Of a DNA stretch of 64,000 nt, positions 1 through 54,644 are shown piece by piece. The position numbers and the translations under genes were made by a program. The notes beneath the pieces were generated by a model. It was not told the DNA's origin, did not search any database, and saw only the letters and a list, made by a program, of their open reading frames with translations. Location of the stretch: the NCBI GenBank assembly GCA_950295325.1, contig OX485807.1, forward strand, positions 23,159,666 through 23,223,665, written 5' to 3'. Numbering within the stretch: the first letter of the stretch is position 1; the number at the start of each line of letters is the position of its first letter. The stretch comes from Polytrichum commune (lineage: Eukaryota; Streptophyta; Polytrichopsida; Polytrichales; Polytrichaceae).

Positions 1-311
1 TGCCTCCAAAACAAAAAATCCCAAAAATACCTAGACAAGTTTTACACACATGACATTACAACACTAGCACAAATTCAAAACAAAAACACCAAGGCCATAC
101 TCACACAAGAAGAATACCGAAACATACACAAACTTGCACCCAAAACCATCAAAGAACCCCTCCACCAAGCCACAATAATATTCCCGATCACAACAACACC
201 TAACCCCTTTGAAAATCATCCCCAACCACCACACACAACATCCACAAATAACACTCTAGACCTTAACCACCAACCCCACCACGTAGACTCCACACTAGGG
301 CGGGCCATCCA

Positions 312-440: not shown

Positions 441-887
441 GGCCATCCATGAAATAGTTGATACAAAAACCACCAACCGAAAGGACAAATGGGGAGCACA
501 AGCCTTGAAGAGAAAATACCTATGTCAATGGCTCACTATGCATGGCACCACACAACAATGGCGCCTTGAGGAGGACCTCTTACACCTGGACAACATCTTT
601 TTAGAACACAACCTTCTACTAATAACAAGATACCACACCACCACCCATAAACAAAAAACCACCCAAACATATGACAACTACCTCAACTACACCCAAACAA
701 AGGATAAAAAACACATACACCCCCCGCTTAGGATCACCAACCTCAAAACATCCACACAAGAATGTAACCCGGACAAAGATATCATTATCAATAAACCTAC
801 CATACAAACAAGCACCGCGGAATCCCACATATACGACCAAAATGGACAATTCCTCGCCACCATTACCACGGAGATACTAGAATGGCT

Positions 888-1385
888 CACGGGTAGATCA
901 CTCTAAGGCATTTTTGTGCACCACGTGCGGCTGGGGTTTTTTTTGTTTTGGGGTTATTTACCTTCAAGGGCTGAATTAAAGCCCCCCTATAATTACTTCA
1001 ATTTCAAAAATTGCCCATTTGTTTGCACCCTTCCATTACTTATATTGTCCAAGTCACTGCAATTTTTTGTACTCTATATTCCTTTTAAGTAATTTTGGAC
1101 ACACGGAAATCCCAATTATCATCCATTCCCGTGAGTCCTAAACCCATTTACATACCATACTAAACATACCTTCTAGGATCCTTATCTTCAGCCCCTATAT
1201 TAATTTTACAAAAATACAATGGCCCATATTTTATGTCCATCTAACTTAGTTATAATGGGATTGTCTACATTTAATGGCCCCTTCATTATTTGGATTTCCT
1301 TTATAATTTTTATTTCAAATGATTTTAATCCTCTCTATATTATGTCACACGTCGTTTTTAAAATGCACTAAGTGATCTACCCGTG
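888..1385. mobile_element. hAT-type MITE (498 bp)
   Basis: The termini are inverted repeats: CACGGGTAGATCACT on the left, and its exact complement AGTGATCTACCCGTG on the right. The flanking 8-bp target duplication GAATGGCT is perfect at 880-887 and 1386-1393. An 8-bp duplication is the hallmark of hAT transposons. No ORF inside looks like transposase, so this is non-autonomous. Removing the element rejoins the LINE frame (EILEWL to WARF). A relative with the same ends lies at 30832-31241. Confidence 0.93.
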
Positions 1386-1559
1386 GAATGGCTATGGGCA
1401 CGCTTCTCTCTAAACAACCTAACCCGCCTAACCAACTCCCTACATCCCCCAGTACAAAACTTCGAAACAGAATTATTATGGCTCATACAAAGATACATTA
1501 CCATACTCCCCAAGAAAAAACCTAAACACATACTACCCAACAATCAACATCATACAATA

Positions 1560-2090
1560 CACCCGGACATCACCAAATTACTTATAGACTCCTTCAAAAT
1601 CACACACTCATACTATTCCTCCCCACTTACGTGTCCCACACAACTCACACAATATCACTCCCCACACACCCGCGACATGCTATTCGGATCCCTAGGACAT
1701 GCACAATCGTCCAAATGGAGTGGTAGGGGCCTAGCATCCCCAACAGACTATAGTACAACCTTACAAGCCATTCATTGGGCTCGAATGGCCGCCAAAGAAG
1801 ATACACAGACAAGCACAATCCTCATAATTAACCACCAAGATTGGACACCACAAAAATTAACCCTCACCAAAGGAGTAGATATCCACGTCATCTCTACCAT
1901 ACCACCTCATACCATACGATATAAACCCTCACCAAAGGAGCAGATATCCACGTCATCTCTACCATATCACCTCATACCATACAATATAAACCCACGCCAG
2001 AATGGCCACAATATTACCAATATACGGAACCATCACTCACATCCATCATATACATACACAACCAGCTAACCCCAACACTGCACCAACAAT
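1560..2090 (+). other. N6-adenine methyltransferase-like domain in LINE ORF2
   Basis: The translation has, in order, SYYSSPLTCP (about 1608-1640), DMLFGSLG, GLASPTDY, a helix-like KWARMAAK-type segment, a hydrophobic strand STILIINHQDW (about 1815-1850) and, after the 65-bp duplication, TSIIYIHNQL. This order resembles the Rossmann-fold N6-adenine methyltransferases of the PCIF1 and phage Dam type: an early S/A-SPL motif, then an NPPY-type motif, then a strand ending in W. The NPPY position here reads SPTD, so catalysis is doubtful. The same block recurs in the diverged LINE copy at about 56280-56700, so it belongs to the element. The assignment is an inference from motif order. Confidence 0.4.
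1861..1990 (+). repeat. 65-bp tandem duplication, two copies
   Basis: Copy 1 is 1861-1925 and copy 2 is 1926-1990, each beginning CCCTCACCAAAGGAG and ending ATATAAA, with a few mismatches. The unit is not a multiple of 3, so it shifts the LINE frame. With one copy removed the protein continues without a stop into the RNase H domain. Confidence 0.9.
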
Positions 2091-2308
2091 TCCCAAACAA
2101 TCTAAATAGAGTCCTAAAAAAAATTACCAACACCCACATAGACATCCATCCCATTCAACCCACTCCCAACAATTATCACATTAAATTTTCCAAAACATGG
2201 AAAACCTCTCCCATAAACCACACCATCCCCACCAACAACAACATAACACTACCCCTACCCCTACCCCCCGCATACAACCACATACACCCCCTCAAATGCC
2301 ACCCACAA

Positions 2309-2705
2309 CAATGCATATATACGGACGGGTCCTTCATCCCACCTTCCAAAAATTCCGAGGGACAAATAGTCAGCAATATCGCGGGCTCAGGGGTATACAG
2401 TCCCAACAACATTACCCAAATAGCCGAAAGATTACCGGGATATCCCAATATTCTAAGAGCCGAGCTCAACGCCATACTTATAGCCATAAAAACTACCCAA
2501 ATAGACACACATATATTCACAGACAGCCTTAACAACATCTACCTAATAAACAACCACATCCAACACCCAACATCTCAACACCACCACCCCGATAAATTAC
2601 TCATCGCAGCCATCGTTCACCAAATATATTGGACCCCACACATGATACACATACACAAAGTACACGCACACACGGGAATTAGAGGCAATGAAATGGCGGA
2701 CGCCC
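2309..2705 (+). other. RNase H domain of the LINE
   Basis: All four acidic positions of a ribonuclease H are visible in one frame: Asp in CIYTDGSF (about 2312-2335), Glu in LRAELNAI (about 2453-2476), Asp in IFTDSLN (about 2516-2536), and the C-terminal VHAHTGIRGNEMADALANEG block with its His and final Asp (about 2660-2720). This DEDD set suggests the domain was active before the element was broken upstream. Confidence 0.88.
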
Positions 2706-3790
2706 TAGCCAACGAAGGGACACTCAAAGACAAACCGGAAAACACGCCACACATACACATAGCACACGCTACCCCCTACTGGCTAGCAACCTCCCCCACG
2801 GCTACACATGATGGAGCCATCCGCAACCTCCACACATTCATAATGAAAGATCACGAAAACCGAGAAACTTCACTAGCCAAACAAAAATTCCCATACGTAG
2901 CCAAATGGCTTTCGAATGAAAAAATCAACCAAAAACTTTCCAACCATTTTTGGAAACATGATAAAATACCCGACACACAAATTACCCAAACTCTAAAATT
3001 TAGATATGCCCAATATATGGGTAACCATAGGAAAAATATATTTTGGCCCCTTAAATACCAAAACCCCAAATGCACACTATGTCGCACCAATGATAGAGAC
3101 ACATGGCCACACCTATTATCCACATGCGAACACCCATACCTAAAAGGCCTACGAATCGCAAGACACAATAAAGCAACCCACCTCATTTCCCAAACCCTAC
3201 AAGCCAATAACAACACCAGGTTCTTCACCTTGACCAACGCGGGCAAATTACCCAACCAACCCCAAGACCAAACAATTCCCGACTGGCTCCTCCAATGTAT
3301 ATGCACGCAAGCACCATGCCATTGTCAAGCCAAATTAAGACCAGACATAATGTGCATTATTGGAGCTCCCAACCAAACGCAAACTCCAATACTACCCTCC
3401 CCAAGCCACACCGTACAATTCATTGAATTCACCTACTGCCACGATAGATTCCCCGAACAAGCCCGCACACACAAACACAACAAATATGACCCGCTAATTA
3501 CCACACTAAGAGCTAACGGATGGAATACCAACCCCCTCATTACTATCACCACAGGAGTAAGAGGTGCTATTCACAAGAACTCCATTGAACAATTAACCAA
3601 CCTGAAAATCCCCAAATCCCACATCAAAACCCTCATGAAAAACATACACCAAAATGCCATTAAATATCTTACCTATTTGGTCTTAAATAAAAGGAAACTT
3701 GACAACAACAAAACCCTATCCCACCACCATAAGGTGGAAATTATCTTGCACTACACCAGAGCCCACCTCCCACAGGAGGCATAACACCCA

Positions 3791-3821
3791 ATATTGCATC
3801 TCGGATTCCCGAGATCAATAT
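3791..3821 (+). other. LINE 3'-UTR hairpin
   Basis: Just after the LINE stop codon, ATATTG-c-ATCTCGG pairs with CCGAGAT-CAATAT around an ATTC loop. That is a 13-bp stem with a one-base bulge. A 3' hairpin of this kind could be the recognition structure for target-primed reverse transcription. Confidence 0.6.
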
Positions 3822-3870
3822 AGGGTTAACGGGCTCACATTCACGCCGGTATGCATAATACGGGCGTTAT

Positions 3871-31389: not shown

Positions 31390-31900
31390 TTACATGCACC
31401 ACATGGAACTGTAGCGTCCTCAACACCAACCTCCAAGAATTCCAACAACTCACCAGCAACTCAAACCCCACACTACTCTTATGTATATAAAAACCAAAAG
31501 TCCCAAAGACAAATCTACAAGATTCATAGATGCACAATCTCCATCACCCAATTATATATAACAACATTCCGGATGCCCAAACATGCCCAAACATGCCCAA
31601 GAAGACTCTATATCCAATATGCACTTACTAGGGGAGGCCTTGTCACTATGATACACAAAAGAATGGCCTGCTCTGAAAATATTACTAAGATTGTAGCCCC
31701 ACTAGAACTAACCCCATACCTACAAAACATCATAATCTTTAATAAACCCCTCAACCCAATCCTCCTCATCCACGTCTACATGCCATCACATGAAGAAGAT
31801 ACACCATCAGTACCTATTATACAAGCTACAATAAAACAAACACCCCACTCATACCTTAGTTCTTGTAGGAGATTTTAATTGAGACAACTTCCTCATTAGA
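31390..31900 (+). pseudogene. LINE AP-type endonuclease relic
   Basis: A frame near 31395 reads TTWNCSVLNTNLQEFQQL, matching the N-terminal TWN start of LINE endonucleases. After frame breaks, PILLIHVYMPS is followed by LVLVGDFN (near 31855-31880), the catalytic Asp/Asn motif of the EEP family. A stop codon directly follows GDFN. Confidence 0.7.
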
Positions 31901-32639: not shown

Positions 32640-33110
32640 AGAAACATACAACACTAAATGCCCAACTAGCAACATTGTTTGCCATAATCATATATGGCAC
32701 ATGTCTTAAAAACCTCTCAAAAGGAAAGACATCAAGCCATGATGGAATACCTAATGAAATCCTAAAAGCCCTCCCCATGGACTTTCATGATGTTCCTATT
32801 TTTCCTACAATGCTACCACCAAAATCTATACCAAAGGAATGGAAACACAATACCACTATCCTCCTATATAGAAAAGACAACCCCATTATAATCACAAACT
32901 ATTGTAGAAATGACTACCACTTCAATACATCCCCAACACAATTACCTCATCAACATATGCCAACGACCTAGCCTTACTTTCGAATTACATCAAACACATA
33001 CAACCCCAACTAGATAAACTCGGCCAATACTCGAATTGGGTTCATATAGATTTGGGGATAAACAAATGTGCGGTCATAGGTTGCCCAAACAAATCCAAAC
33101 TACGACCACG
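32640..33110 (+). pseudogene. LINE reverse transcriptase relic with an internal deletion
   Basis: GKTSSHDGIPNEILKALP, then PKEWKHNTTILLYRKDNPII, then TNYCRND match RT blocks 1 and 2 (K-S-x-G/H-DGI; W-x-T-x-L-x-K; NYRP). The catalytic block appears as STYANDLALLS (about 32950-32980), with YAND for YADD. Only some 40 bp separate NYRP from YAND, where about 100 codons are expected, so the middle of the palm was deleted. Confidence 0.75.
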
Positions 33111-34130: not shown

Positions 34131-35859
34131 TAGGCACTTTAGTAACCATGGATAAGTACTAGTAACATTAGTAGCATTGATTGGTTAGATATCATGTGGC
34201 TATAGATTGGTATTTGTTTTTGTTGGTGGTCACCAAGTCATGGTTCCACCACATGCACACATAACCCCAACACCCAACCAACTCCTACCCCAATCACCAC
34301 ACCAACCCCACAAACCACACATAGCACTCCCAATATTCCAATAGGCGCCCGAATCACAAGCATAACCGCCTTCAAATTAATACATAGAAAAGACAAATGG
34401 GGGCTCACAAAATGCATGTTCACCTTAAATGCCACCGGAACCAACACCAAACCTCACACACAAAATGGATTTCCCAAACCCACATCCACTAATAGCAAAC
34501 AGGGTCTGCACGACACAGAGGTCTGACAGCATCAGGGGTTTGTGTGGGATATTTGGACAGAGGCACATGTTTTGGGCCGGAGTCTGGAAATTGTGTGGAG
34601 GCAACACAAACAACACATGAATATTATGTGCCTGTCAGAGCCCTCTCCCGGCGATCGTGCAACAGATGATCAATCGGTGTTGGCATGGCATGGGCCCAAG
34701 CTCCAAGACCCGGCATGCCGTTTGTTGCAGGGCATTGAATAATGTGTGGCGGCGTACATAAATACAGACACATGGAGTGCAGTGTCTGAATTAGTATCCG
34801 GTCTTTTCCTTTATGTCGTTGCCATTGTGTATTGTGTTTGGCATTTTTGGTATATACACCCACCTCTTTGTACTCCCCTTGGTGGTGTGTGTATTGGCAT
34901 TCATGTATTTTGGTCGACTGGTTTTTGTGCCAGTGCATGCACACCGTTCGTTTGCAATGTTGGGCGATAGACGTGAGTGCAATTTGGAATCGAAAGCCAT
35001 CCACAGTTCAATCCATAAACACATGCAATGGGGTTGTGCGCAATATATAATGGCATTGAAATTTTATTCAAGTCCCAGAGGACGTGCAATTCCCATTGTT
35101 CGCTGCCCCATGGCTGCTTCCACGCCATTCTATCTCCTCTGTGCACACTTCCTATTGTTGCAAACAGAGCAAGCCTTCTGCAGGCTCACCCCTTTCCGTC
35201 CACTACTGGCTTCCTTGACATCTGTGGGTTTGCTTTTTGGTGATGAATCTTCGCATGGCACTAGAACCATGTGCCCGCTGCTGATGCTTCTGGTTGTGGT
35301 TGTCATTGGCCCTTGGAGCTGGTTGCACCCATCTTTATGCTTCCGCCCGCACACGGTTGTCTTCTGCACCAGTATCCCTCGCATAGATGGCGATTGTCTG
35401 CTCCCTCTGCTGCTTGGCAATTTTTGGCCTTATCTTCTGCACAAGCCCCCCCCCCTTCCCTTCAAGCACTGCATCCGCAATGCACCAAAATTCTTCCTTC
35501 AGTGCCAACTCTTGCCCACAATTGCGCCCATTTCGTCCTCCAGCCCCTGCGTGCTTGCCCTGACATGGTGCTACTTACATGCTGTGGACCTCTCCTGACA
35601 GCACACACCTTGGTTCTACAACACCGATCGGTCCCCACTTGACTCCTCCTGCCCCAAGGCGTATTCCATCTCGGTTGAGGCGATGCGGCGGCCCCTGGCC
35701 TCCTTCTTCAGCACGACACACCAGCCTGGCATTGTTGGTGCGTCGACGAAGAAAACCTGCATGTTATTCCCTTCCAGTCAGACCACAGGTTCCCTACTTC
35801 GACAAATTCAGCGACCAAAGCTAGCACACCCTTGGAACAACACAAACTTATCATGCTCT

Positions 35860-38800
35860 CTATACCTGTGATGCAAACGCTAGGAACAAGTATGGCTCCA
35901 AAGTGTCCCGAGGCCTGGCTGCAAGGTTTGCCAACCAGAACCCGTGTGTGTCCCTTTGCAATCGCGGCCGCATTTCAGTGTGCGTTCCAACCCATGACAC
36001 CACCATGAGGACGATGCACATTTGCCCATAGTTCAGCGCCAAAATGTCCTTCAGTATGCCAACCTTCGCCAATTCCACCACTGCGCATTCATCATGATAG
36101 TTGCCCCCCCTCTTGCAGGTCGTAGAACCCCTACTCCCGAGTCAAATGTTACGTGGCGCGCGCCGTCCTCCTCCATCTCCACCCTGTAGTGTGACGCATA
36201 TGATGTCATGCTCCTGAAAGAGCATGCCCGGCTGGACGGTCCGCATGCTAGAGCCCCCAACTCATCACCTTCCTCTGTCCTACTCTCTCCCATACGTGCG
36301 CACCTTGTCCGGAGCCACGTTGTGAATGGGGGTGTTCCATTTCTTGTTGCCGTCTCCCTCGCGTGCTCGCTGCATTGACACAACAATAGTATTCCCCGAT
36401 TCAATAATTTTCCCTGGTCCACTTTTCAATTCCTTCCAGCAAAAACTGGCGGTTCATTGGCACTTACCTTCGCATTTCCTGCGTGCTTGCGTGGTTCATT
36501 ATTACATATTCGTGTGCTCTTGCCAGCTCGCCCACACATAGATTGTGTACGCGTCCCCGCCCCTCCGGCACCGATGACCTCATGGATTCGTCCTCTTCAG
36601 ACTCCCAAATGTGTCTTCTGCTGTGCTCCTGCAAGTTCAGGTATTTTGCACAGAACCCTAGGGCCTCCTCCGCTGCGTAACCATTTGCCATGGACGCCTC
36701 TGGCTGCGCCCTATTCCTCACAAATGTTTTCAGGGTGCCCAGGTATCGCTCGCACGGGTACATCCACCTCCCTCCCACCGGTCCACACAACTCGATCTCA
36801 TCCACCAAATGCACAAGTGTGTGTTCCATAATGTCAAAAAAAGCAGGGGGGAAACACAACTCCAACAAGCACAAAGTTTCGACGACATAAACCCGCAGGG
36901 CCGCAAGCTCCGCCTTCACAATTACCCTGGCACATATGCGGCTCATGCTCTTGCCCAGCCTGATCAACGCTGTTCTCTGCAGTGGTTCCATCAGGGTTCT
37001 TATGACCGCAGGAATTATTTGTTGTAGAAGACAATGGTAGTCGTGGGACTTCAGTCCCACGAACCTGGATTTTTTTACATGCTTCCCCAGCGAGCTCCCG
37101 TACCCTGCAGGGGTGCGGATTGCGCTCACCTCTCTTATGAAGATCTTCCTCTCCTGCTCTGTCAGCACATACGGCGCTGGAGGCTTGAAGAATGTTTGCC
37201 TGTTCCGCCCCGGCCTTAGCCACAACTCCCGTCTGGTCCCCATTGCCTCCATGTCCCTCCTCGACTCGGCGGTGTCCTTCTCCCCAAACATGAATTTGAT
37301 TGCGGTCTCCGCTATGTTTTTTTCTATATGCATGACGTCCAGCACGTGCCTCACGGGCAAGTCCTGCAAGCTCGAATTCAGAATGTGCTGCACCATACAA
37401 AACAACACCCTTAAAAACCACTATGCCTTGAATCGCAAATATTTACCTTCTAGTACGGCAATGTGAAGAGCGCTGGCAGCCGCTTTACACCGCTGCTCAG
37501 CATGGGGTCCCCGGCCGCTCCCATCCTCCCCCCATAGCGTGCGTACTTTGCTCGCATAAAAGCCCATCGGATGTGTTCCGTTGCGTTCATCCGTTCAGGT
37601 TCTTCCCCCAGCTCCACACTAGGGAAGACATTTCTGTCGTGCCTGTAGGGGTGCTCCCTCGGTAACCACCTCCTGTGGCTGCCTCCATAGACCACCTTCG
37701 AGAGGTTTTCGGAGTACCTTGAGGGTGTGTTGGGGCCACACACAGGACATGCACAGTACCTCTTGTTCGTGGTACCCGCCATCATCGCATACGCAGGGAA
37801 GTCATGTATGCACCACAACAACATTGCGCGCAGCGTGAACCGGGCCTCACCTCGCCATCTACCTGCATCATTACACAAGACGCCCTCTGCCCATAGCGTT
37901 CGCAGCTCCTTTATCAATGGAGTCAGGTATACATCCATGTATAAGGCAGTCACGGCGTCGGGGCCCGGTATTAGTAAGCTTAGCATTATGAAAAATCTCT
38001 TTATGGTCAGCCATGGAGGGATGTTGTAGTTGAGGATAAGAACAGGACACATGGAGTGTGTTGATCTTTTCTGCGAGTGTGGATTTATGCCATCCACACA
38101 CATTCCCAAATGCATGTTCCTGTTATCAGCCTCAAAATCTGCATGCTTCTCTCTGACATGCTCCCACTGAGGGGAGTCAAATGGACCTCGCATGTTGCCG
38201 TCGTTGGAGACGTTGCACCCATGCCATGTCATCAAGTATGCCAGCTGCGGTGTGGAAAACATTCTCCGCAACCGTGGTGCCAAAGGAAAGTGTCTCAAAA
38301 CCTTGACGGGCACCTTTGACATCCCCACAATTCTATATCTACATGCATGGCACATGGGACAAGCTTCCTTGTTTGCATGTTCGTTCCTGTACAAAATGCA
38401 CCCGTTGTGGCATGCATCTATGCAATCGTATCTCAATCCAATTTTGCTCAGCATGCTTGTGGCCGTCCTTTCGCTCTTGGGCAGAGAGTTGGGTGTGGGC
38501 AATATCACGTTTCCCAGCAGCTGCAGCATTTCGGTGATGCAGGCATTCGTCACTTTGTGTGTGCGGCACACATTTAAAAACATGAGGGTTGTGTCCAGTT
38601 TTGATATATTCGACCCACAATACAATGGGGTTTTGGAGTCGTCGCTTAGCGCAGAGGCACCTTCACATCCTCCGGAGTTGGTCTCGTCCTCCCCCTCTGC
38701 ATTGTCGTCCCAATCTCCTCCCTCCCCAGACTCGCTGCTCTCATTGTCGCTGCAGGTTTCGGATACACTTGTGCTCCCCCCCTGCACGTCCCCTGCACTC

Positions 38801-39125
38801 GCGCACAGTCAGCTGCATCAGACTTTGGTCCTCCACACACCGGTTTTCTGGTCTGCGAACTAGCTAGTGCTCCACCGCATACATCAGTACCCGCTATGCA
38901 TGGCGTCAAGCACAATATTCCTCTGCGGCATGGCACTCTGTCGGACCATCTCTCACCTTCTTGTGGGCCCTCGTCGTCCGTGCTACCTTCAGACGTCCAC
39001 CCAGCGCCCGCGTCCGCGTCGCCATTAACGACTCCGCCGCTACCAACGGCAACGCTCGTGCTCCCTCCCATTTCCGACATTGCATCTTCGTGCAGCATGT
39101 CGGCTGCAACGAACACATCCCGCAC
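35860..39125 (-). pseudogene. CACTA transposase (tnp2 + DUF4218 + DUF4216-like)
   Basis: Read from 39125 leftward. The first part is acidic. A 7-G run near 38780 joins two frames, so a frameshift or sequence error is possible there. The tnp2 region has the CPMCHACRY cysteine cluster, LMTWHGCNVSNDGNMRGPFD, a DGINPH-type motif, LTPLIKELRTLWAEGV, and LLWCIHDFPAYAMMAGTTNK with the CPVCG finger. It runs to LPALFTLPY, where a TAG stop replaces the Trp of the usual LPYW-K. Past a short intron (about 37393-37434), the segment VRHVLDVMHIEKNIAET starts DUF4218, which has GYGSSLGKHV, LKSHDYHCLLQQ and GGRWMYPCERYLGTLK. The final part, 36422-35860, reads like DUF4216 (SYASHYRVEMEEDG; LVVVSWVGT-like; PYLFLAFASQV). 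In CACTA elements tnp2 is the DDE transposase. This copy would be truncated by the TAG. Confidence 0.85.
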
Positions 39126-41099
39126 AAGCGTTTCGCCGACTCGACTTCCTACACCCCCCCCGGTTTCCCCAGTCCAGCTGTGAGATCGGGTCTAGTGCAG
39201 CATACGCACCGTCCCACTCTTCATCGGAGGTGTCCCTCTCCTCGCCCTGCCACAAACGAATGCATTGTCAGTATGCCCACACAATGGCCTTCCTCTGTTC
39301 GAGTCCCCTGTGCGAGTGTGTCCACTCAAATCCACATAATCCTCCCCTCATATGCAACCAAGCTGTTGTCTCGCAAAGTAGGACCAACAATTAGCGGCGT
39401 TCAGGGGGGTCACCGATTCCTGCAGCCTCTTCAATGGGTGCCTCCCATAGTCACGCAAGTGCCTTGCGTGCGTTGCGCGCAACAGTGGTCTCCCAAATAG
39501 ACATAGCATGCATGGGCACCTGGTTCGCGCTTGCCCCGATCCGGCTTGGCGCACTGTTTCTCTGCGCCACATCTTTGCATCCCTCCTTTCTATCCTGCCC
39601 GCATCTGTTGTGGGGGCCCTGCCCCGCTCGCCTCCGCGTTCCATATTGCTAGTGCATGCTCCCACCTGCTATTTCCCTGCCTGCCAACGATGCGCCCGCA
39701 TCGTTCGTGGATGTATTCCACCCACTGCCGCACAGTCCGTGCCGGCTTTCCTCCCCTGCTTCCGCAACGGCATCTATGTGCGACGCATGTTGTTGTCCAC
39801 CAGAGATCACACAACGCACAATATTCACTGCGTGGCCGCTATTGGAGTCCACAACCTCGCAACCGTGTGCCTCTGCGAAATCTTCCACAGTCCCGGCCGC
39901 TGGGCTCGACGAAACCCGCGCTATCTTGCAATGCAGAACGGCAACATGTTCCGATGCAAACATCCCAATCACAATTGCCCTGACCCCAAAAACGCGTTTA
40001 CAGATGCCACATTGAGCGCCCACAATACACGCCGACCCCGGTTGCGTTTCTGAGCAACTGCCCAGAGTCGACACCAGCCGCCAGCCCTAACCAGTGCGGC
40101 GAGCTTGCGTCGGTCCCTGCCACCCGGCCGCACGCCCGCCTTTTGTCCGTCTATGTGAAGCACGCTCCCACCCCATTATTGGGCGGAGAGTCTGTGATGG
40201 CCCAGTCTCTGCTCCCCTGCTCTTACACCGCTATTGCGCCATTCCTGCCGATTTTAAAATCGCCCAACACATGTTCTGTGGTGTTGCCTTAGAAGATATC
40301 GGTGCGTATGAGCCTCTACGCGCGAAACATCTACGCCCGCTCCCGCGGTCCGTTTCAAACCCCCAACAAACCCTCTGGTGTTGATGTTCGGCTCCTGCTG
40401 CCTTCCCCGTCTGCCGCACTGAAGCCCCTCCACAACGGAGCCTCGCATCCACCGCAACCAACGGAGCAGAACGCGATGGCGACAGCGTGGCCTTTTGCGG
40501 CTTTCCTGGATGGACGCCGCTGTATCGTAGGTGTGCCACCTCGTGCCCTATGCTTGGAGCATCAATATGGGCATGCAAACCCCTGCACATATTTTTGTTC
40601 ATCATGGACATGCAGCATCTCCAATTTCCAACCTATATTATTCATATAGCCATTTCCTGTCAGTTTCTTCATTGGCACCCTATGATGAAACATGTTGTAA
40701 CATATTTAAAATGTAGCCTTGCATGTATTATGGATGCATATATATGAATGGGCAATATTTTGGCCAACAATTCAGGCGGGCGTATATACTACCCCCAGTG
40801 CTTATGATATATACGGTATATCGGCATGGCTTTCCTTGTGTTCCTTCTTAGAGCCCACTGTTTCGCCTCGGCTATGACACAACAATGCACAATGCCCACA
40901 TTCAAGCAAACATTTGACACATACTTTCATACACAGGAGAACTGTACACATTGCATTGCAGTTGAATGCCAAGAAGCCAAACATCCTTGAAGGGTCATTT
41001 TCCCAGCTGCAACATCAAAAACGACAAAAATTGTCTGCACCCAGCAGAGGGAGGCTGCTATGGAGCGCATGGAATGTGCTCCGATAGTGCGGGAAGAAA

Positions 41100-43460
41100 A
41101 CTACATTTCTGTGCCACAATATGCCGGCCGTTGTTGCATTCCCATATCCATTAGCCCTACACCCCCTCCATGGGGCCCAACTCCGCTTTCTCGTGCAAAT
41201 ACTTGGATGGCCACCGAACCCACCTCTCCACCCTCCCGGAAGCCCAGACAACATCGTCGCACATATTGCCTTTCCCTATATTGGCGTCGTCGGGGAATAC
41301 CAACGGGGTATCGTGGTGGTATATCTTTTTGAACAAAATATATTGCTGTCCGTCTTCGCATGTGGCCACTAAATCCTTGTGACAGCTTCGGGACTTGTTG
41401 TGCACCCCCGCTTTGGCCTCGCCCACCACCTCGTTCTTGAATCCAGGGTGCAGGACCCAGCACTTGGTGCCAGGCCTGAGCACAACCTGCAAGCAATGGT
41501 ACAGTTGTTAGCAAACAAAAATTGTATTCGACTGACTGCGATGTTGCAATTCGGGATTCCAGTACTGAAGGTGGGGCCCGACAACTTCTCACCCCTTTTT
41601 TCTTTGGCTGTAGTGGGGGGGCCTTGCATTCGGGCTCTGCAGTGGAACCAAAATCCCTGTCATTGCCATATCCGGGGGGGTCCCTGTACTTGGGCGCGCC
41701 ACTGCCAGTAGCCTTGCATGCAGGTCCCAATGGCACAGACTGCCGCGGGAGGGCTAGCCTGCCAACAAATGGCACTGCTCTAAGACGCGAATTTGCATGC
41801 ATACCTGCCGGCAGGCGCATCAATTTGCCGGGGCTCCCTTCCGCCGGTTTTTGTTTTCCCCCGCTGGAACTGGAGCTGGAGCCGTCGTCCTCCACAACAA
41901 TGGGGTGGTTCGACAAGGTCCCCAACGCCTCGTCCGTCTGTGGCATTGAGTGAGGTTTGGTCTGCCTTGGCGGGATTCGCCCTGTCCGCACCGGTGTCGG
42001 CCACATTGTTCTGGTTTACGCGTCGTTGGGACTCCGTCGGAGTGGACGGGGCGACATGCACACGCTCAACTGGCCTTCGCCTTGTGTCATCGGATGGCTG
42101 CACCCCAACATCACTTACCTGATGGCGGCGTTTGGCCCCCAACTCCGTCATTATGTCACCTATCCCTTTGAGCACAGCCTCCATTTTTTCTTCAACCCCT
42201 GCCTGCCTTTTTTCCAAAGCACCCAACCTTCCATCTACATGTCTCCGCCAACTGCTTTTCTCGTGTTGTCCGCAAACACTGCAATCCTTTGGAGCGGTCC
42301 CAATTCGGAATATCTGCGACAGAGGCTGATCATCCTCTTCTGCCTGCAGAATACTCAAAACAAAACCAACATGACATTCTATGTTAAAGTTTGTTCGCAT
42401 ATGCACACAGCGTGTGTGCACCAAGAGGCACGTTCCGCATTGGTTATCGTGATCGTTATTCATTGATGTTCCAAATTAATTGCAGGTGCACCATGACTTG
42501 TGTTCTTCCTGTGCACCAACCCGCCAAGCTCCAGGGTTGCGTGCGTGCGCCATTTTACATTCAGTGAACCATGTCACATAACAATGAACATTCACTGAAC
42601 CATTCACAAAACAATGAACACAATGGACTGTACCAGAGGTGGGGCTTGCTCGGCGGGTGCAGTATGTCGCGATTCGTCCTGGCGATCATTGTCCTCCGTC
42701 CTTCCGGCCAAATCCCCCGTCCCCGGCACAGTGGTTGCCTGGCCCCTCATGGGTGAGCCTTCTTTTGCGCATTGTCTGTCGACATCACCCTGGGACTGCA
42801 TGTCTCCATCTGCCCTACTTCTGCTTGTATGAGACGACCCCGCCTGCGAGTGCGGGACGGGAGGTGCTGGGGGCTTGTACAACGCTCCATATCCAGGAAA
42901 AGCATATGGGCCCACTGTTACTGGTGTCTGGCCATAGGAGGAGACGTGGACCGGCGGGAAGTTCAAGTACGGCTACAAGTATGGGGAATGGCCAACGGCA
43001 TACCCATACACAGGGTCATGCTGGGAGCTCCGGAATTGAGAGGCGCCCATGTCCCTCTGCACATGCCGAAAACATGCATTATAGTCCTCGACAGGGATGT
43101 CAGCGAAATTTGATTTGCGCTAACAAAAACAGCAAAACCAGCCACACACATCGATCGCACACAAAAATGCGTGTGTTTGGAGGGGGGGGGGGGCGCACCT
43201 CCGCCAGGCTCGCCTTTTTCGGTCGTCCCTGATGGTCGTGCGAGGCACCATGTTCACCTCTGCGGCTGCGCTTTGGACGGTCGTGCGGGCGTCCTCCACC
43301 CACCGGAGGTGCTTCCCGTGCGCGTGTGGACGCGCGCTTCCCGGGAACATGGACGCTGGTCTCTCCAACAACAGGCCCAGCGGGTGTCGACATCGTCTCG
43401 AGTTTGCGCCTTGTTCCAAATACCACCCCCAATCCCTGCTGTGCCTTCTCAACAATCCTC
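41100..43460 (-). CDS. CACTA accessory gene 1 (minus strand), multi-exon
   Basis: From right to left: a psq-like helix-turn-helix stretch (WVEDARTTVQSAAAEV, VPRTTIRDDRKRR) at about 43320-43200; a Tyr/Pro-rich segment (PYAFPGYGALYKPPAPP) at about 42970-42600; a coiled coil (VDGRLGALEKRQAGVEEKME) near 42240-42160; a Ser/Pro-rich linker; and a C-terminal domain near 41490-41160 with CWVLHP, CEDGQQYILFKKIYHHD and WVRWPSKYLHE. The last domain resembles the DUF8039-type domain often found in CACTA accessory proteins. A C-rich/G-rich tract at 43181-43190 interrupts it. Exon borders are not resolved. Confidence 0.55.
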
Positions 43461-44893
43461 CCCTTGGTCTGTCACAACAACCGTGGTTTGCCTATTCCTG
43501 TGCATCCATCACATGCTCGACATATTGGACGCGGCACTGTCATTGTCTGTGCACAACAATTATGAACTGGAAGGTTTTTGGGAGTCGACATGGATCTCTG
43601 CATGAACGGTCATCTTCAATTCAATGCGCGACTGGTGGGTGTAGCCCACCAACCAAACACACTCCTGTCATGGTGGTAGCGATGGTGACCATGTCCGCAA
43701 TTGTATTTGGCCATTGGATGGAAAAAGACAATCGGCGGACCCATGCAAGAGGACACGAAAGCAGAAAGCATGAACTTACAGGCAGCTACATTCGTGTAAT
43801 TCTCGTTTCAAAAAAAGAAGCGTGTCGCAGCCGCCTAAAAGGTGCAGGTCGCAGCTATCGTTAAGGATGCAAATGCTTAAACACACAGTGGCAGGTGGGA
43901 GCAGCTTAGTAGACAAATTTGGCGGCCATCCACACAGGATCAAGCATCTGGAGTGGTTGTTCACAAAATACCTGCAGTCGATCACGAGATGCGTGGGATT
44001 TGATGACATCAGGGTCGGATTCCGTGATGTCGCGATCCGCTGCCAGTATCTGAACGCCACATTCCAGCCTCATGATGTTCATGCATCCCACGGTCTGGAA
44101 GCTCCAGAATGCGAGAGAAAAGCTGCAACACCAAACAACTGCCAGCCTTCACATCGGAATGTCCGCAGTGGAGCCTTTCAATCCACGCTGTGGCCACCCC
44201 ACCGAAAACCCCACCTACATCCAATACAAGGAGTAGTGCTCCACATAAGCATGCAAATCAAGCGCCGAATGCGACTCTGACATGCGTGCTACATTCATAG
44301 CGCCCTCCACCCTGCTCTGCGATCAAACACGCAAGACGGAGGCGCACTCACAACTGTGTGCATCCACAACTGCTGCGGGGAGGAGACGCACAATGCATCA
44401 CTGCGTAGCGCACCCTCGGGAATGTCCACTTCTGGGGAGGGGGGAGGCGCATGTTTACATGCTCGCCTTCTGGACCGTGGGTGCCTTGCACGCGAGCCAA
44501 CCGCGGGCAAAACAACTGCATTGTGCTTCGGCTGCCAATAACGGCCACCGGCCCCCACCATGATTGCCGAAACGTCGCCCAATGATGGCAGGTGCCTCCA
44601 ACAATCAAACACATCACTTGATGTGTGCCAACCAGATTGACAATGATTGCGCAATTGTGCTTGCACTCGACTATGGCATGCGGGGTGCCGCAAATTGCTC
44701 GCCAACTGTCCCATGTTGATGGTTGTGACATCATTGCGGCGGGGACGTGCCGCATCTATGCATTTCGATGAGGGCCAGTGTATGTTTTGAGGTCTGCTCC
44801 GTCGCGCCGGCAGCATGCCCGGAGCATTGGGCACCTAAGGACGCCCCCTTAAACATTGCGAGGGCCGCCGTGGTGCACAGCGGCCGGGGCGTG

Positions 44894-44975
44894 GCGGAGA
44901 TGTGCCCGCGGTGAAGGCGGACGAATACTTGTAGGCGGAGATGTGCCCGCGGTGAAGGCGGACGAATACTTGTAG
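44894..44975 (+). repeat. 41-bp tandem repeat, two exact units
   Basis: Both units run from GCGGAGATGTGCCCGCGG through AATACTTGTAG, followed by a partial third start (GCGGAGACTG). This is inside the CACTA element near the pogo insertion. Confidence 0.9.
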
Positions 44976-45550
44976 GCGGAGACTGTGGGCTGCCCTGCGT
45001 GGATGGACGACGATGGGGGACAACCTCGCCCTGCCATGGGGGATGGCAGCGGGGATGGGTGCATTCAGTCCACCCGCAAAGTCGCCAATGGTTGCCATGG
45101 TCTGGATGGCAACGCATCCATGTACGCGGACCATTGCATACATTCAGCGGGCGGCAGCGAACGCCATGCATGGAATCCGTTAATAATGCCACGTCACGGT
45201 GGTTAGTCGGGGGGGGGGGCGCCTGCGTTTTGGCAGCTCCACGCCCCACGCATGCAGCAAGCTCATCATTTTGCTTTCCCTATTCATCGAGATGAACCTC
45301 TTCTCCAAACAGTTGGCATACACCCTAACCTCCATAGTGTCACGCCCTCCGTCTCACCAAAAACTGTGATATAAACAAGGTGCGACATACTTGAGAATGT
45401 CGCATTTTGTGCATATTGTGATATTATAAAACCATATGTGTAAAATAAAAATATTATTACAATTTAAATAAAAACAACAAATATTGGGACTTCAAGGTTT
45501 TTTAATGTAAAATGCAATTCAAAATTGTGAATAACAACAAGGGCACATCA

Positions 45551-47293
45551 TAATGTGTCATTGAGATCAGGTAAAGACCTCTCACTAGAGACAAAGAGGC
45601 TTCTAATGTCACATTGTTTTGTTGATGTTAAATGTGGAACACCATTTCCAATGACTTTGCCATGCATTTTTTCCTTTCCCAACAACTCGTGAGTGCTGAA
45701 AATCAAAGAACCTTGGCTAGCCATAAAATTCAAAACTTCTTCACCATATTTTTCTGCATCGCATTGCTTCACTACTTTAGGCTCACCATCACTGCTATCA
45801 ACAATCAATGTGACCACTTCCATGGATTCAATAACATGTGCGCCATCTTGCACCAATTGCACAAGCTCCCCAGTAGAAAATTCCACCTCAAAATCATCTT
45901 CACATTCTCCGTTTATGTTCTCCAAAGGAAAAAGCTTTTCTACAAGTTTGCCTTCAACATCCAAACCCAATTTTAATGCGCCAATGGGTCTACCCAATTC
46001 CAAAGTTGCATCCTACATTTTGGACTTCATACGTTCATCTCCATTGTTTATGTCTGCATTCCACTCCGCAGGCAATATGGAGGACTGTCTCCCACAATTT
46101 CTAATGGCTTCATAATCTAATTCATGCCATGCCGCCACACACCACAGCATAGCTTCAAATACATCGACATTTAATTTCCCCAAATCTTCATTTGAGTTGT
46201 TATCAATTTGTTGGAAAGTTCAGGCAACAAGCTTGCACATATAGCACATTGTGTATGCTGCAATCACTCCTTCGTCAAAAGGCCGAACAACTGGAGTCAC
46301 AATTGGTGTAAGGAACAAGATAGTGATATGGGAGAGTACAAAAACATTAAACCGATATATAATTGTTCCGACCTGACCATGAATATCATGGCTTCCTACA
46401 TTATGCATAATATTGCAAATCTTTCTGTATATCAATGTCATTCTTCGGTTCTCACTCTGCACCCAATGTGTAAAAACATCACCATTAATGTCGGCTGGAT
46501 TATAAGAACAATAGTGTATTGTCCTATGTGGATCCTAATTCTGAGAAAATCATCTGGGTTGCGCTGCTTTGTGAATGAAAACAAGCTCTAGTCGTGCCCT
46601 CCCTGTAATATTGGCGCGAATCCCCAATGGCACACGGTCCTTCTGTTTTTTATTTCCTTTCGCCTACCCAATATTCAAAGTCTTATAAGGAGAGGCCGCA
46701 TAATACAAACTTTTCCCATGAAAATTGAAAATGTATTATGGATCATATTTCTTCAATATGAATGGGATCTTTGTCATGGCCAATGCAACTCCATCTTCAT
46801 CTGCATCTCCACTTTCTGCACGCACACATTAACACTTTATTCCATGTTGAGTTCAGAAATTTTGCAACCGCCCATTAGAAAGCTTGAATTCGGTATCAGA
46901 TATGCCAAGTGAATCCCTCAATTCCTTGGTCATATGCATAACGACAGCACTAGTTGTTACTCCCCTCCATGCTCTACCTTGTCCAAGCCACAAATGCAAG
47001 GCTTTTTCAAGCTCGGGCTATTTTCCAGCTGTAGCACGTCGTTCATTGCATTCACGCACACATGTATCCACGTTCACCCACTTTCCATTTGAATGAAGAA
47101 TCATGGAAATAGTGGTCCGGTCCACAAGCTTGAATATATGTTGATCCACCATATACTGAGGAAGTCCTTCATGTTTCAAACTTGGACGAGCTTTGTGGAC
47201 TTCACAATTTCTCCTCTTATCAGACGCAGATAAATGAACTCGTTTGCGTGTGCAATTGCTCTCCATTGCGAACACCTTCTTTTGCCTAAGCAT
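45551..47293 (-). pseudogene. pogo-like (CENP-B/Tc5 type) transposase, degenerate
   Basis: The N-terminal part reads VHLSASDKRRNCEVHKARPS, DRTTISMILHSNGKWVNVDT and PELEKALHLWLGQGRAW, then RDSLGISDTEFKLSNGRLQNF. These match the two helix-turn-helix domains of CENP-B and pogo transposases. The DDE part, with stop codons, reads YIFNFHGKSLYY, ASPYKTL, KKQKDRVPLGIRANITGRA and FLTPIVTPVVRPFDEGVIAA; the last matches the PxxTxxxQPxDxGVI motif. The C-terminal part (from about 46180) reads AWH-type DYEAIRNCGRQSS and ends TSTKQCDIRSLFVSS with a stop at 45551-45559. pogo elements are well known in animals and fungi; in plants they are less familiar. Confidence 0.83.
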
Positions 47294-47733
47294 TCACCCA
47301 AACAAGCACGCAAAACCCCCCACAAATGAAGGACCTCCAGCTTTAACATGTTTGATATACATGGCGTACAAAAAGGACATGCATGTGCCTTCAAGTCCAC
47401 ATGGATTCAACAATCTGATGCCAGAGAACCCTAAACAAGTCTCACACAATACGATCATCCTATATAATAAAGCATCAAACGTGACTTTGAAAAAGTAATG
47501 TATGGAATGAGGTATTCGAACAAAAAACACACACAAATGGCACCAAAGCTTAGAAACACACCAAGTTCCAATGACTTCTCTTGCCAAGGAAGAGTGACAA
47601 TGCATTCCCTTTTGTTTGCCTCCATAATTGATGTTATGGTTCCTACAATGTACATCACAACAATACATGAACAAGACAATTCAAGGGAGCACAGATGCAT
47701 CATTGCATAATCAGATTTGAAATGCGTTGCCAA

Positions 47734-48421
47734 AACCGGGAGGAATTTATACAGACAAATGCGTCAAGTGGTGATTGATCCGTGGGAGACTTGAGCAGCA
47801 ACTTCACAACCAACAGATGAGCATACATGAGTATGGTTGGCAACATAAACCTCCCATACCTCTATACTAGTACTTACAAAGAGAGCACCAGAAAAAGGTA
47901 AGGGGTAGAGTAAAGAAAATTTCCCCTGAAGGCAAAGGGTAGGGCTTCTTGAAGTCCCGGGTGGCAACTATCCCCTTTAGAATATTTGTTTCTAAATTAC
48001 TCCTCGTGAACTGATGCTCCATTGGTATTCCGTACTACACAAAGAGCAACGTATCTTCATATATTCTTAGCGCTACATATGCTTGGAAATAAGGCGTGCA
48101 GAGGAACCCATTGATATCATGTGTGTTCGAGATGGATAAGCCAGAAGGTCTTAAACACCGAACTGATTCCACAAGCCTCAAAGCTTCAGAAGTTCCATTT
48201 AGGAATAAACCTTGTGGATGCATTAGTTTGTTGGGGAGAGAGGCAATAAGATGAAGGGCATAGCGGTGTGTGGAGCGGCGATAGGAGATAGCATACGATG
48301 CAGGCAGAGCTGCGATAAGTCGATCTGCGAGATAAACCGTTGCTTCTTCGGCACATGAGATTGAAGATTCAAGAACCCAAGATTTTTGCGGAACCAAGGT
48401 GAAGATGCCGATGTCATCCAT
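47734..48421 (-). other. Coding-like stretch in the pogo interior, unrecognised
   Basis: A 128-codon minus-strand frame (48035-48421) begins MDDIGIFTLVPQKSWVLESS and includes RLIAALPASYAISYRRSTH and LIASLPNKLMHPQGLFLNGT. A weaker frame follows at 47764-47967. Neither fits a transposase. It may be a captured host fragment, an upstream exon, or chance. Confidence 0.3.
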
Positions 48422-48484
48422 AGAATTTGTTGTCCGTCCGCCCTTATCACAACCATGTTACTTTTTATTATGGCACGCACAGTA

Positions 48485-49015
48485 CAGATTGTGGGAAAAA
48501 CATGTGACATTATCAAGGGTGATAGGGATAATAACGAGGGGGTTTTTTACTATGGAAATCGGTTTCAAACTTTTAGGTGACCATATGAAGGCGTTCTATT
48601 AACAAGTGTGATATTATCAAGGTTAGCTGGTACAAGCCTCAACAAAGAATATTTAGGAATATGCTGGGATTATTTGGCCCAAATTGTTTTAAATGGTAAT
48701 TTTTGCAGTGGCAGTGTTATGTCCTGTGTTTTGTGCGTGTCTGCATATAGCGATACACATGAATTATACCAACCCCAGTGCTCCACACGAGCATACTCGG
48801 CAATTCGTTTCCACTGGTTTTATTGGCAACATTGTCTGCGATGCGACTGTTGTGGAGGTTACGTGTGTATAGTCCAACCTTGATAATGTCACCATTGTTA
48901 ATAGAACACCTTCGTAATGTCACCTAAAAGCTTGAAACCTATTTTCATAGTGTAAAACTCCCTCGTTATTATCCCTATCACCCTTGATAATGTCACTATT
49001 TTTTCTCATAATCTG
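48485..49015. mobile_element. Fold-back MITE with TA target duplication (531 bp)
   Basis: Ends CAGATTGTGGGAAAAA and, complement, CAGATTATGAGAAAAA, with TA at 48483-48484 and 49016-49017. The inverted repeat extends about 165 bp and includes GTGACATTATCAAGG, GATAGGGATAATAACGAGGG and AAGGTTG-like parts. The word GACATTATCAAG is shared with the larger pogo element ends, so the two are probably related. Confidence 0.85.
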
Positions 49016-49156
49016 TAGTGTAAATGTGATAATATCAAGTATGGATGGATTGTAAGGGTGGGCATGGGTTCGATATTATTGTTCATGGGTGAGCATGGGC
49101 TAAAGCAAAGCATATTGGGGGTCATAGAGTGAGCTCTCATTCAATGATTTCGGCAT

Positions 49157-50007
49157 CGAATGTTGATGTATTTAAACCTATGCTATGGTGTGTGGCAGCA
49201 TGGCATGAAATAGATGATCAAACCATTACAAATTGTGGGAGAAAGTCCGCCATATTGCCTGCGGAGTGGAATGCAGACATAAACAATGGAGATGAACGTA
49301 TGAAGTCCAAATGTAGGATGCAACTTTGGAATTGGGTAGACCCATTGGCGCATTAAAATTGGGTTTGTATGTTGAAGGCAAACCTATAGAAAAGCTTTGT
49401 CCTTTGGAGTACATAAACATGCAAGGTGAAGATGATTTTGAGGTCGAATTTTCTATTGGGAGGCTTGTGCAATTAGTGCAATATGGCGAGCATGTTCTTG
49501 ATTCCATGGAAGTGGACCCAATGTTTGTTGATAGCAGTCATGACGAGTCTAAAGTAGGGAAGCAAAGCGATGCACAAAAAATATGCCAAAGATGTTTTTA
49601 ATTTTATGGCGCGCCAAGGTTCCCAGATTTTCAGCACTCATGAATTGTTAGAAATAGAAAAAATCCATGACAAACTCATTAGAATTGGTGTTCCACATTT
49701 AACATCAACAAAACAATGTGACATTAGAAGCCTCTTTGTCTCTAGGGAGAGGTATTTACCTGATCTCAACGACACATTATGATGTGCTCTTGTTGTTATT
49801 CACAATTTTGAATTAGATTCTACATTCAAAAACATTGAAGTCTCGTATTTGTTTTTTTTGCAATATTGTATTTATATTTATATTTTCCACATATTTTTTG
49901 ATAATATCACATGTCGCACAAAATGTTACATTATCAAGTATGTCACACCTTGTTTATATCACAGTTTTTGGTGAAACGGAGGGTGTGACATTATGAAGGT
50001 TAGGGTG
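49157..50007 (+). pseudogene. Inverted copy of the pogo transposase 3' third
   Basis: The plus-strand frame matches the minus-strand C-terminus at 46172-45551: NVDVFKPMLWCVAAWHEID, DQTITNCGRKSAILPAEWN, ELGRPIGALKLGL-like, and finally TSTKQCDIRSLFVSR with a TTA stop context at 49780. It is the right arm of the long inverted repeat. A frameshift near 49570 separates two frames. Confidence 0.82.
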
Positions 50008-51825
50008 TACTGCCAAGTGGCACCGCCCAAAATGCCGTCAGTGTCTCGCTAAAATTACTGCCCCTGTATGTACAATAATCATGCATACCTAACGGCCATG
50101 CCACGTGGGCGCCCAGCACACCCGCCGGCATATTGGTATAAAAGACCTACATTGTAGAGGACATCGTGGCGGCCGTGTGGTGCATCCCATGCGTGCAGAC
50201 AACACATACGCATACATGGGCACCCCATCGGGCCCTATGGTCGGCACACGGCGCGTATGCGCCTGCATTCGCTTGACGCCGAGCAAAGAAAGGCTGCTTA
50301 AGAAGGGGAAGGCCTTGCAGGAGCGTGAGCAGCAGACCATCAACATGCGAAGTGCATGCAACAGTGCCCATTCGATTGTCGTCGTCTCATCCATCGACGG
50401 TGCCCAAGCAGGTGTGGATTGCGGGTGTTCCAAGCAGATGTGTGCATGGAGAAGTCGGCAGACCTCTGTAAACAGTAGGGCACCAGACAGGGACGCCGGG
50501 GCACTCACATAAGGAGTGCACATCAAGGACGCGGCACACAAATACGATCGGGTGAGTACACGACCTCGTTATCCGCAGAGCAGAAGAGTTTGGAAAAGGC
50601 AAGATCCACCTAATTGTAGAGTCAGAATATCGTGCCGCAGCTTCTGTCGCGCAATACACAACAAACACGTCAATTACCTCCTTACCGCAATGTCCTTCAG
50701 TGGATGTCGCTTCATTAAACCATGTAGATTTGTTCCGTGTTCGGCACTGGGGATGACTGCTGCAACCTCCATCTACCAGAGGGCCCACCGCTCGAAAACC
50801 GTTTGATGTGGTGGGGCAGGACACCGCAGAACATAAATAAAGCATGTGTGCATGCGACGGGGGAGGGGGGGGTGGATCGGTACACAACATCGTCTTCTGC
50901 CGAGACACTGTGGGATGGGCAGAATTCTATGAGTGAAACATACTTCCAAATGTAAATGCCAGACCTCTATAAACGATTGGGCAGTATAGGGCAAAAGCAA
51001 AATCGCCGAACAGCACGGTCCCCAAGGACTGTGATATCGTCGTTGTCTTTGAACATTGAATGTGTCCAAATAGGAGGTTTTGTCTGGAAAGTTTGCGATC
51101 TACAGGATACGTGCATGCACAGAACAGGCATTTGGAGTTGTGGGGCGCACTGGAATGCATTGTGGCAGTGGGTGAAAGGCGGTAGATAGGAAACGGATTC
51201 GGCAGACTGTCCATAATATTGACATTTGCGTTGCTATCATTGCATGGGGCAGGAAAGGCGGCGTAGCTTTTTGTGAAAAGGGTTGTTTATCTCCGCAACA
51301 GATCGCGCCGCAGAAGCCGTAGCAAACCCACAGCCGCTGCACTGCTACCATCGGGAAGAGGAGTCAGCATAGGTAGAAGGGGGGGCCGGAATTCCACAAA
51401 CGTTCGCGCAAAATGGAGAGGATTGCTTACAACAGATGCTCCACTGCAGCATCCCCATACAGCAAGGCGAGCTCAACAAACTACATTGATCAAGATGATC
51501 ATTGTTTGCAATGCTGCACATTGCAGTGACTGACAGAAGTAGTGCACATGTGCAGGGCAAAGCGCCGCTGTGGACCGCAGGTGCACCAGTCATGGACGGC
51601 ACACGAAATACAAGACCTCCACAAGCAAGATATTCCACCTCCATGCATAATATTATTTGTATGCAGTTGAAAATCGCAGGTGGGTCACGCAATGCAGTAG
51701 TGGAGTGTATGTGTCCACTGCCAGGTGCGGCACACATTGCCGGAGCAGTCGCCGATGACAGAGGTGTGTGCAGGGTCATAGGTGGACACAGAGAAGCCGC
51801 AAAGGTAAGCCACACAGCCTCCCCA

Positions 51826-52986: not shown

Positions 52987-53280
52987 CTGTATTCAGTGCG
53001 CATGGCGGGAGGGATGACACGTTGATTTTAACAGTGTGTGTGGGAGAACTTTGCGCAACACCCAATGTGCGCAGATGAGTGCCCAGTGGCGACGGCGCCG
53101 GGGGAGAACGCAGTGGGAGATTACGATGATTGCTCGTTGTACGGAACTGGGGATACAACGGGGGAGCCCAATGTGGAAGCACGCTTTCATAACGCACCTG
53201 GCGGTTTGTTGGACAGGCTGGATGGAATGCGCACGTCCATGGTGGCGGTGGTTGCTGGGCAGGATGCAATTTTAAATTGA

Positions 53281-54219: not shown

Positions 54220-54321
54220 ACCATGCAGAGTGTTGTGCGTAGGAGGTGTCTATGTCGCACCTGTGCAGCGCATGTGGCATGGAATCTGGCTGAAATTGTT
54301 TGTGGGCTTTTGGAACATAGG

Positions 54322-54644
54322 AGTTGCTGCGTTGCGGATCGCACTGTTGGGTGCTATATCCCCTTCATGGGCAAAGGCCTATAGCAGAAGGAATTGCTGG
54401 CAGTGCGCCAGTGTCAAAAAGCACTGAAGACAACATTGCGCGAACATTGCTATTGGAATTGTGTGAGGACGGAAAACAGACGGTGCGGCTAACAAAGGTG
54501 CACAAAAAAAATGTTGCAGTTATGTTCCCAGAGCAGACTGGAAGAACGCAGTTCCTAGATGACTACATCACCCCTCCCGCTCCAAGCAACACATGGGTGA
54601 CGTGGTCAAGCCGATACCTGGTTGAAATGGAGGAGGAGGCATGA
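54322..54644 (+). CDS. CACTA accessory C-terminal domain, paralogue of 41160-41490
   Basis: The frame reads CWVLYPLHGQRPIAEG, then LLELCEDGKQTVRLTKVHKK, VMFPEQTG and NTWVTWSSRYLVEMEEEA-stop. It aligns with CWVLHPGFKNEVVGEA, CEDGQQYILFKKIYHHD, LVFPDDAN and ERWVRWPSKYLHEK of the minus-strand gene. So two related DUF8039-type domains sit on opposite strands of the same element. Confidence 0.6.

Follow-up and report, generated by a model that had tools for sequence, protein, structure and literature searches.

LINEs of the Dualen/RandI type are described in two reports as carrying an APE endonuclease together with a restriction-like endonuclease (PMC4640811, PMC3636483), and an RNase H is listed for them in one (PMC4640811). 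Methyltransferases have also been recorded in retrotransposons. Gypsy elements of Klebsormidium carry Dnmt3 according to PMC5890265, and the methyltransferase of DIRS elements is of the adenine type according to papers other than PMC3266345. The Pfam family PF12237 (PCIF1_WW) is, according to PMC7641849, misannotated as WW and represents a CAPAM-like (CAPAM/PCIF1-like) methyltransferase. The motif of these methyltransferases is given as [DNSH]PP[YFW] or NPPF, and changing it abolishes or reduces activity (PMC7927073, PMC10544176, PMC6318281). A jumbo-phage family is said in PMC7824862 to have the PCIF1 clade as its nearest relative. Among the titles and opening lines of abstracts in a limited library, no report of a PCIF1-type domain in a LINE was found; a published report could exist.

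The window analyzed here, a stretch of 64,000 nucleotides from Polytrichum commune, holds two diverged LINE copies, referred to below as copy 1 and the older copy, which share a block of protein sequence within ORF2. On the basis of sequence comparison we favor, with a probability of roughly 55%, the reading that ORF2 of this Dualen/RandI-like LINE holds a pseudo-methyltransferase derived from PCIF1/CAPAM, which would have been kept as a nucleic-acid-binding module.

Two LINE copies and the block they share

Copy 1 is truncated on its 5' side by the start of the window, and the stop codon of its final ORF lies at 3782-3784 (Table 1). Three breaks interrupt its ORF2, namely a short insert at about 305-436, a TIR element at 888-1385 and a 65-bp tandem duplication at 1856-1985, and the pieces left open are 1-300, 442-885, 1362-1919 and 1925-3781. 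The initial annotation had placed the block between an RT-side connector and RNase H. That placement stands; no RT motif was seen in copy 1, the 5' part of which lies beyond the edge of the window. The CCHC knuckle of copy 1, together with its RPDI...IEFTYC...KHNKYDPL stretch, is taken by us to be a restriction-like endonuclease; Pfam and PDB searches lent no support to this reading of the copy 1 end.

The older copy is a single element cut in two by a 21.3-kb CACTA transposon, not a 3' fragment. When the flanks of the transposon are rejoined, the connector of copy 1 aligns across the junction with 33% identity (E 9e-21, 764-nt subject), and the older copy carries stops within this alignment. 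Because the transposon splits the element, its halves at 31.2-34.5 kb (5') and 55.8-58.4 kb (3') mimic separate copies. The transposon ends are CACTAATAGCAAACAGGGTC and, reverse-complemented, CACTAGTAGCAAACATGGTC, alike at 18 of 20 positions; Transposase_21 and DUF4218 proteins within CACTA elements are typical of plants. In the 5' half, TWNCS, GGLVTMIH and LVGDFN are presumably APE-like, and HDGIPNEIL and YANDLALL presumably RT-like, and a Pfam search found no APE or RT match for these remnants at 31392-31879 and 32738-32979. Both sets of motifs (31.4-33.0 kb) sit 21 kb upstream of the block of this copy.

Table 1. Features of the two LINE copies, with positions in the window
Feature	Position	Strand	Basis
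Copy 1, ORF2 connector, open from the window edge	1..300	+	Open frame; no match in Pfam search
Copy 1, ORF2 connector, second open piece (RKDKWG ... EILEWL)	442..885	+	Alignment spans the empty site in the older copy; no match in Pfam search
TIR insertion splitting copy 1, with 15-bp perfect TIRs CACGGGTAGATCACT and GAATGGCT at each side	888..1385	.	Sequence
Copy 1, PCIF1/CAPAM-like methyltransferase block as far as the frameshift	1386..1928	+	PF12237 match; weak hhalign alignment to PCIF1
65-bp tandem duplication, shifting the frame inside the block	1856..1985	+	Units 1856-1920 and 1921-1985, 4 of 65 differing
Copy 1, candidate last strands of the block (TPEWPQYYQYTEPSLTSIIYIHNQLTP)	1994..2074	+	Aligns globally, though weakly, with HGTAVIFLQNN of fish PCIF1; no Pfam match when searched alone
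Copy 1, RNase H with YTDGS, RAEL, FTDS, GNEMAD	2318..2713	+	Clear PF00075 match, E 1.1e-14; PDB RNase H alignments
Copy 1, CCHC knuckle (CX2CX9HX4C)	3071..3127	+	Sequence; name assumed
Copy 1, restriction-like endonuclease-like end (RPDI ... IEFTYC ... KHNKYDPL)	3338..3496	+	Assumed from motifs
Older copy, APE-endonuclease-like remnants (TWNCS, GGLVTMIH, LVGDFN)	31392..31879	+	Assumed from motifs
Older copy, RT-like remnants (HDGIPNEIL ... YANDLALL)	32738..32979	+	Assumed from motifs
CACTA transposon inside the older copy	34487..55799	.	Ends 18/20 alike, ATC at each side, Transposase_21 and DUF4218 within
Older copy, same block, frame-broken	56110..56640	+	PF12237 at 15.6 bits (E 0.013), under the cut-off
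Older copy, decayed RNase H region	56880..57360	+	tblastn alignment
Older copy, CCHC and RLE-like remnants	57703..58145	+	Sequence

In copy 1 the motifs of the block are read in a single frame of the ORF at 1362-2069, with SYYSSPLTCP at 1608-1637, FGSLG within 1674-1700, GLASPTDY at 1728-1751 and TILIINHQDW at 1815-1844. The order is the same in the older copy, which has SYYSSPLICP (56337-56366), FGSL (within 56403-56423), GLAHITN (56457-56477) and TIMIVTHENW (56544-56573). The two blocks are 44% identical over the aligned part, tblastn pairs the copy 1 block with the older copy at 56271-56576 (E 3e-21), and a run of nine residues, THSYYSSPL, is identical in both. The motif order that the initial annotation had reported as kept in two diverged LINE copies was therefore recovered in the sequence, with SYYSSPL, FGSL and the strand ending in DW or NW all present, but SPTDY does not belong to the conserved set, the older copy reading HITNI there. 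The interval proposed for the block in copy 1, 1560-2090, is not read in one frame, as the 65-bp tandem duplication shifts the frame near the end. The block probably spans about 1530-2074, its end falling in the second ORF (about 1925-2074).

Several other repeats and reading frames were noted during the examination of the window. The insert at 305-436, flanked on both sides by GGCCATCC, belongs to a short dispersed element that is also found at 33998-34124 (80% identity), one per LINE copy and seemingly inserted at separate positions, with GATA repeats at its start and a GC-rich hairpin inside. The older LINE holds a 42-bp end sequence (31200-31241) that is 76% identical to the TIR element at 888-1385 with ends CACGGGTAGATCACT. 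The coding strand is strongly A+C-rich in both LINE copies (e.g. 1387-3784; 68-79% A+C and 7-13% G, five pieces measured). A weak match to Peptidase_C26 (gamma-glutamyl-hydrolase-like; E 0.093, below cut-off) was also obtained and, with the CACTA proteins, would point to a plant. A Myb/SANT-like ORF (PF13837, just under cut-off) lies beside an ORF on the opposite strand, the pair occupying 20876-21970 and 22448-23626. The ORF opposite the Myb/SANT-like one presumably encodes a Harbinger transposase (CIGAIDGSHI) and had no Pfam match. Rfam searches of the window sequence gave no family at the gathering score, and a tRNA search gave neither genes nor tRNA-related parts.

Resemblance of the block to PCIF1/CAPAM

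The piece 1362-1919 of copy 1 scored 34.0 bits against PF12237 (curated cut-off 31.1, E 2.7e-8), with its residues 27-118 lying on profile positions 13-100. The match stops at position 100 of 176, right before the catalytic loop, and a joined piece that includes the end of the domain gained nothing (33.4 bits versus 34 without the end). The short piece 1530-1718 alone still reached 25.3 bits (E 1.3e-5), and pieces 1386-1607 and 1677-1919, taken singly, had no PF12237 match. The older copy scored 15.6 bits, below cut-off, on profile positions 46-96, the same region as in copy 1; its E of 0.013 is only about tenfold under the best match of a shuffled sequence to any family (E 0.11). PF12237 was matched neither by the reversed sequence nor by the seven shuffles scanned out of nine made. 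No WW domain was matched among the window pieces scanned. Searches of bacterial genomes gave no PF12237 match above cut-off (0/398, 0/297 and 0/4; 697 distinct genomes, two of them searched twice) and a single match below it (E 5.9e-4). These scans apply a loose first look ahead of scoring and had no positive control (0/14 control genomes gave a match), and they address chance matches above cut-off, not the distribution of the family.

Direct comparison was made with PCIF1 in PDB chains 6irv and 6irx, which were reached with a stretch of PCIF1 as query. With two-row profiles, hhalign placed SPLTC...DMLFGSLG...GLASPTDY...TILIINHQDW against SPLNC...DGYFGSRG...FEANPPF...SFIVFIPEW at 31% identity, with a pairwise E of 0.0043 and a probability of only 8%. 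Over 72 paired columns the PCIF1 residue was matched in 14 of the 28 columns identical between the LINE copies versus 8 of the 44 others (Fisher p 0.005), a test favored by its design in that the alignment was built using both LINE copies. The support from the hhalign alignment and from this column test is modest. Pairwise scores of the block with PCIF1 were near noise under BLOSUM62 (z -1.1 to 2.4) and reached z 3.6 at most under BLOSUM45, and the pairwise alignment of the older copy misses the motif register. PCIF1 was absent from the results when the block was searched against PDB sequences, the few matches being unrelated proteins. AlphaFold gave a mean pLDDT of 32 for the block (three window rows) and, from a single sequence, of 34 for a 619-aa part that takes in RNase H and the RLE-like end, values too low for a meaningful fold comparison.

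What speaks for homology to PCIF1 is the Pfam score, together with the second copy and the spacing of the motifs. It is unlikely that the block is instead an unrelated LINE-specific linker domain which PF12237 matches by chance or convergence. Such a reading would fit a match confined to half the domain, weak pairwise and profile scores and the low-confidence structure model (pLDDT 32). However, the PF12237 score lies above the curated cut-off and the second copy falls on the same profile region, the eight control sequences gave no PF12237 match and the 697 bacterial genomes none above cut-off, and both the motif spacing, which is similar to that of PCIF1, and the column enrichment argue against it.

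The order of motifs had initially been likened to N6-adenine methyltransferases of the PCIF1 or the phage Dam type. The first of these likenesses is supported, at the level of sequence, by the PF12237 match above the curated cut-off, while no match to the second was obtained in a test that is insensitive. Phage Dam was dropped as closest relative: the block of copy 1 and that of the older copy each matched 0 PHROGs families, NCBIfam had no match to the block, and phage tblastn with the block returned five records, all with E of at least 1, the first lying opposite an annotated gene. The phage tests are insensitive because PCIF1 used as the query likewise yields no phage record (none at E<=1). 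Scans of IMG/VR with the LINE sequence and with PCIF1, and of GTDB contigs, gave no confirmed relative; both used short exact peptide patterns, which reach close relatives only. Four GTDB-contig loci were returned, whose tblastn matches to the block were noise (best E 0.007).

Probable loss of the catalytic motif and constraint on the block

As initially annotated, the position of NPPY reads SPTD in copy 1 (1737-1748); the older copy has HITN there (56466-56477). [DNSH]PP[YFW] is thus broken in both copies, in keeping with the decayed enzyme that had been offered as an alternative to an active one. Two base changes would be enough to turn SPTD of copy 1 into SPPY, and for this reason an old loss is not proven by the motif in itself. 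The third position of the motif is ACA (Thr) in both copies and the fourth is a RAC codon (Asp/Asn) in both, and the common third residue suggests that the motif was lost before the copies split. The lack of stops in 442-885, 1386-1919 and 1925-3781, stretches picked for being open, sets an upper bound of roughly 2.7% per site (95%) on neutral change in copy 1, from which a hand estimate puts the loss of both motif positions after insertion of copy 1 at well under 1%. The RNase H of copy 1 retains YTDGS, RAEL, FTDS and GNEMAD, the first Asp lying outside the PDB alignment. The shared ACA and RAC codons, the neutral bound and the retained RNase H residues are together the reason for regarding the loss as old.

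The same evidence bears on whether the family has an adenine methyltransferase that is still active and modifies the family's own RNA or cDNA, with both copies having lost the motif after their birth. Both copies are indeed broken elements, the distance of copy 1 from SPPY is short, and PMC3266345 and PMC5890265 report methyltransferases in DIRS elements and DNMTs in Symbiodinium LINEs, respectively. Set against this are the three stop-free stretches of copy 1 with the estimate drawn from them, the Thr common to both copies and the RNase H residues kept in copy 1, and we regard recent loss from an active enzyme as rather improbable.

Constraint was estimated from 103 codons. Of the differences between the copies, 46 fall on first, 25 on second and 59 on third codon positions, a pattern in which second positions are avoided. 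The initial annotation had pointed to the ratio of silent to replacement changes, and by the Nei-Gojobori method dN was 0.49 and dS 1.34, a ratio of about 0.37 (bootstrap 2.5-97.5%, 0.0-0.67) from just two copies, both broken, with dS near saturation. The lower bootstrap value of 0.0 is taken to come from saturated dS, and neutral decay of the older copy accounts for part of the divergence, pushing the ratio up. The ratio was lowest in the SPL..FGSL half, being 0.17 for the 51 codons up to FGSL versus 0.66 for the 52 codons past it; therefore the first half has been under tighter constraint than the half that holds the catalytic position. A ratio for the region after the block (0.22, 516 codons) was left unused because the alignment there runs through frameshifts. 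Weak constraint past FGSL, the catalytic position included, would suit a genuine PCIF1-derived domain that is now functionless and persists as a passive structural spacer separating RT from RNase H, but the greater conservation of the first half, with its identical THSYYSSPL, makes a mere spacer decidedly improbable.

If the block is a pseudo-methyltransferase kept for binding nucleic acid, as we prefer, a domain from the RNA adenine methyltransferases of the PCIF1/CAPAM family would have entered ORF2, with the RT connector on one side of it and RNase H on the other. It would no longer transfer methyl groups, and the SPL.C / D..FGS half would have been kept. Once folded, the pseudo-methyltransferase would hold nucleic acid, most likely the RNA of the element itself, beside RT and RNase H, and the candidate RNA target would be the capped 5' end or the 3'-UTR hairpins of the element. 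METTL14 serves METTL3, and the role proposed here would be analogous to that of METTL14 alongside METTL3. Two hairpins are predicted right after the LINE stop (3781-3870; 120-nt fold, z -5.8, 0/200 shuffles as stable) and are a possible template-recognition structure. A fuller scenario is offered tentatively. In it, a plant LINE with two endonucleases would have taken a cap-adenosine methyltransferase into ORF2, where it became a pseudo-enzyme recognizing the RNA of the element, with active versions possibly surviving in sister lineages. If true, the presence of such a PCIF1-type domain in ORF2 of a plant LINE would add an RNA-modification family to the methyltransferase domains captured by retrotransposons, and the path from an enzyme fold to a nucleic-acid-recognition part of a LINE would become testable.

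Comparison with described elements and enzymes

The block shares with PCIF1/CAPAM (PF12237; PDB 6irv, 6irx) the motifs SPL.C and D..FGS, a similar spacing to the catalytic loop and a W ending the next strand. However, PCIF1/CAPAM has NPPF where the LINE block has SPTD or HITN, and the block, unlike PCIF1/CAPAM, sits embedded in a retrotransposon protein. We infer a placement of the element near Dualen/RandI, with the RT of copy 1 lying beyond the window and that of the older copy decayed. Read across both copies, the element would resemble Dualen/RandI in its putative order of parts (APE-like, RT-like, RNase H, CCHC, RLE-like), yet it has a methyltransferase-like block, which goes unmentioned in the passages on Dualen/RandI consulted (PMC4640811, PMC3636483). 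DIRS1-like elements, as described in PMC3266345, likewise have a retrotransposon pol protein with a methyltransferase domain (RT-RNase H-methyltransferase), but they are tyrosine-recombinase elements and their methyltransferase is listed after RNase H. SymbioLINE-Dnmt is, according to PMC5890265, similar in being a LINE that has captured a methyltransferase, on which purifying selection acts; it differs in that a cytosine methyltransferase is encoded in an ORF upstream of the RT ORF, not within the RT protein.
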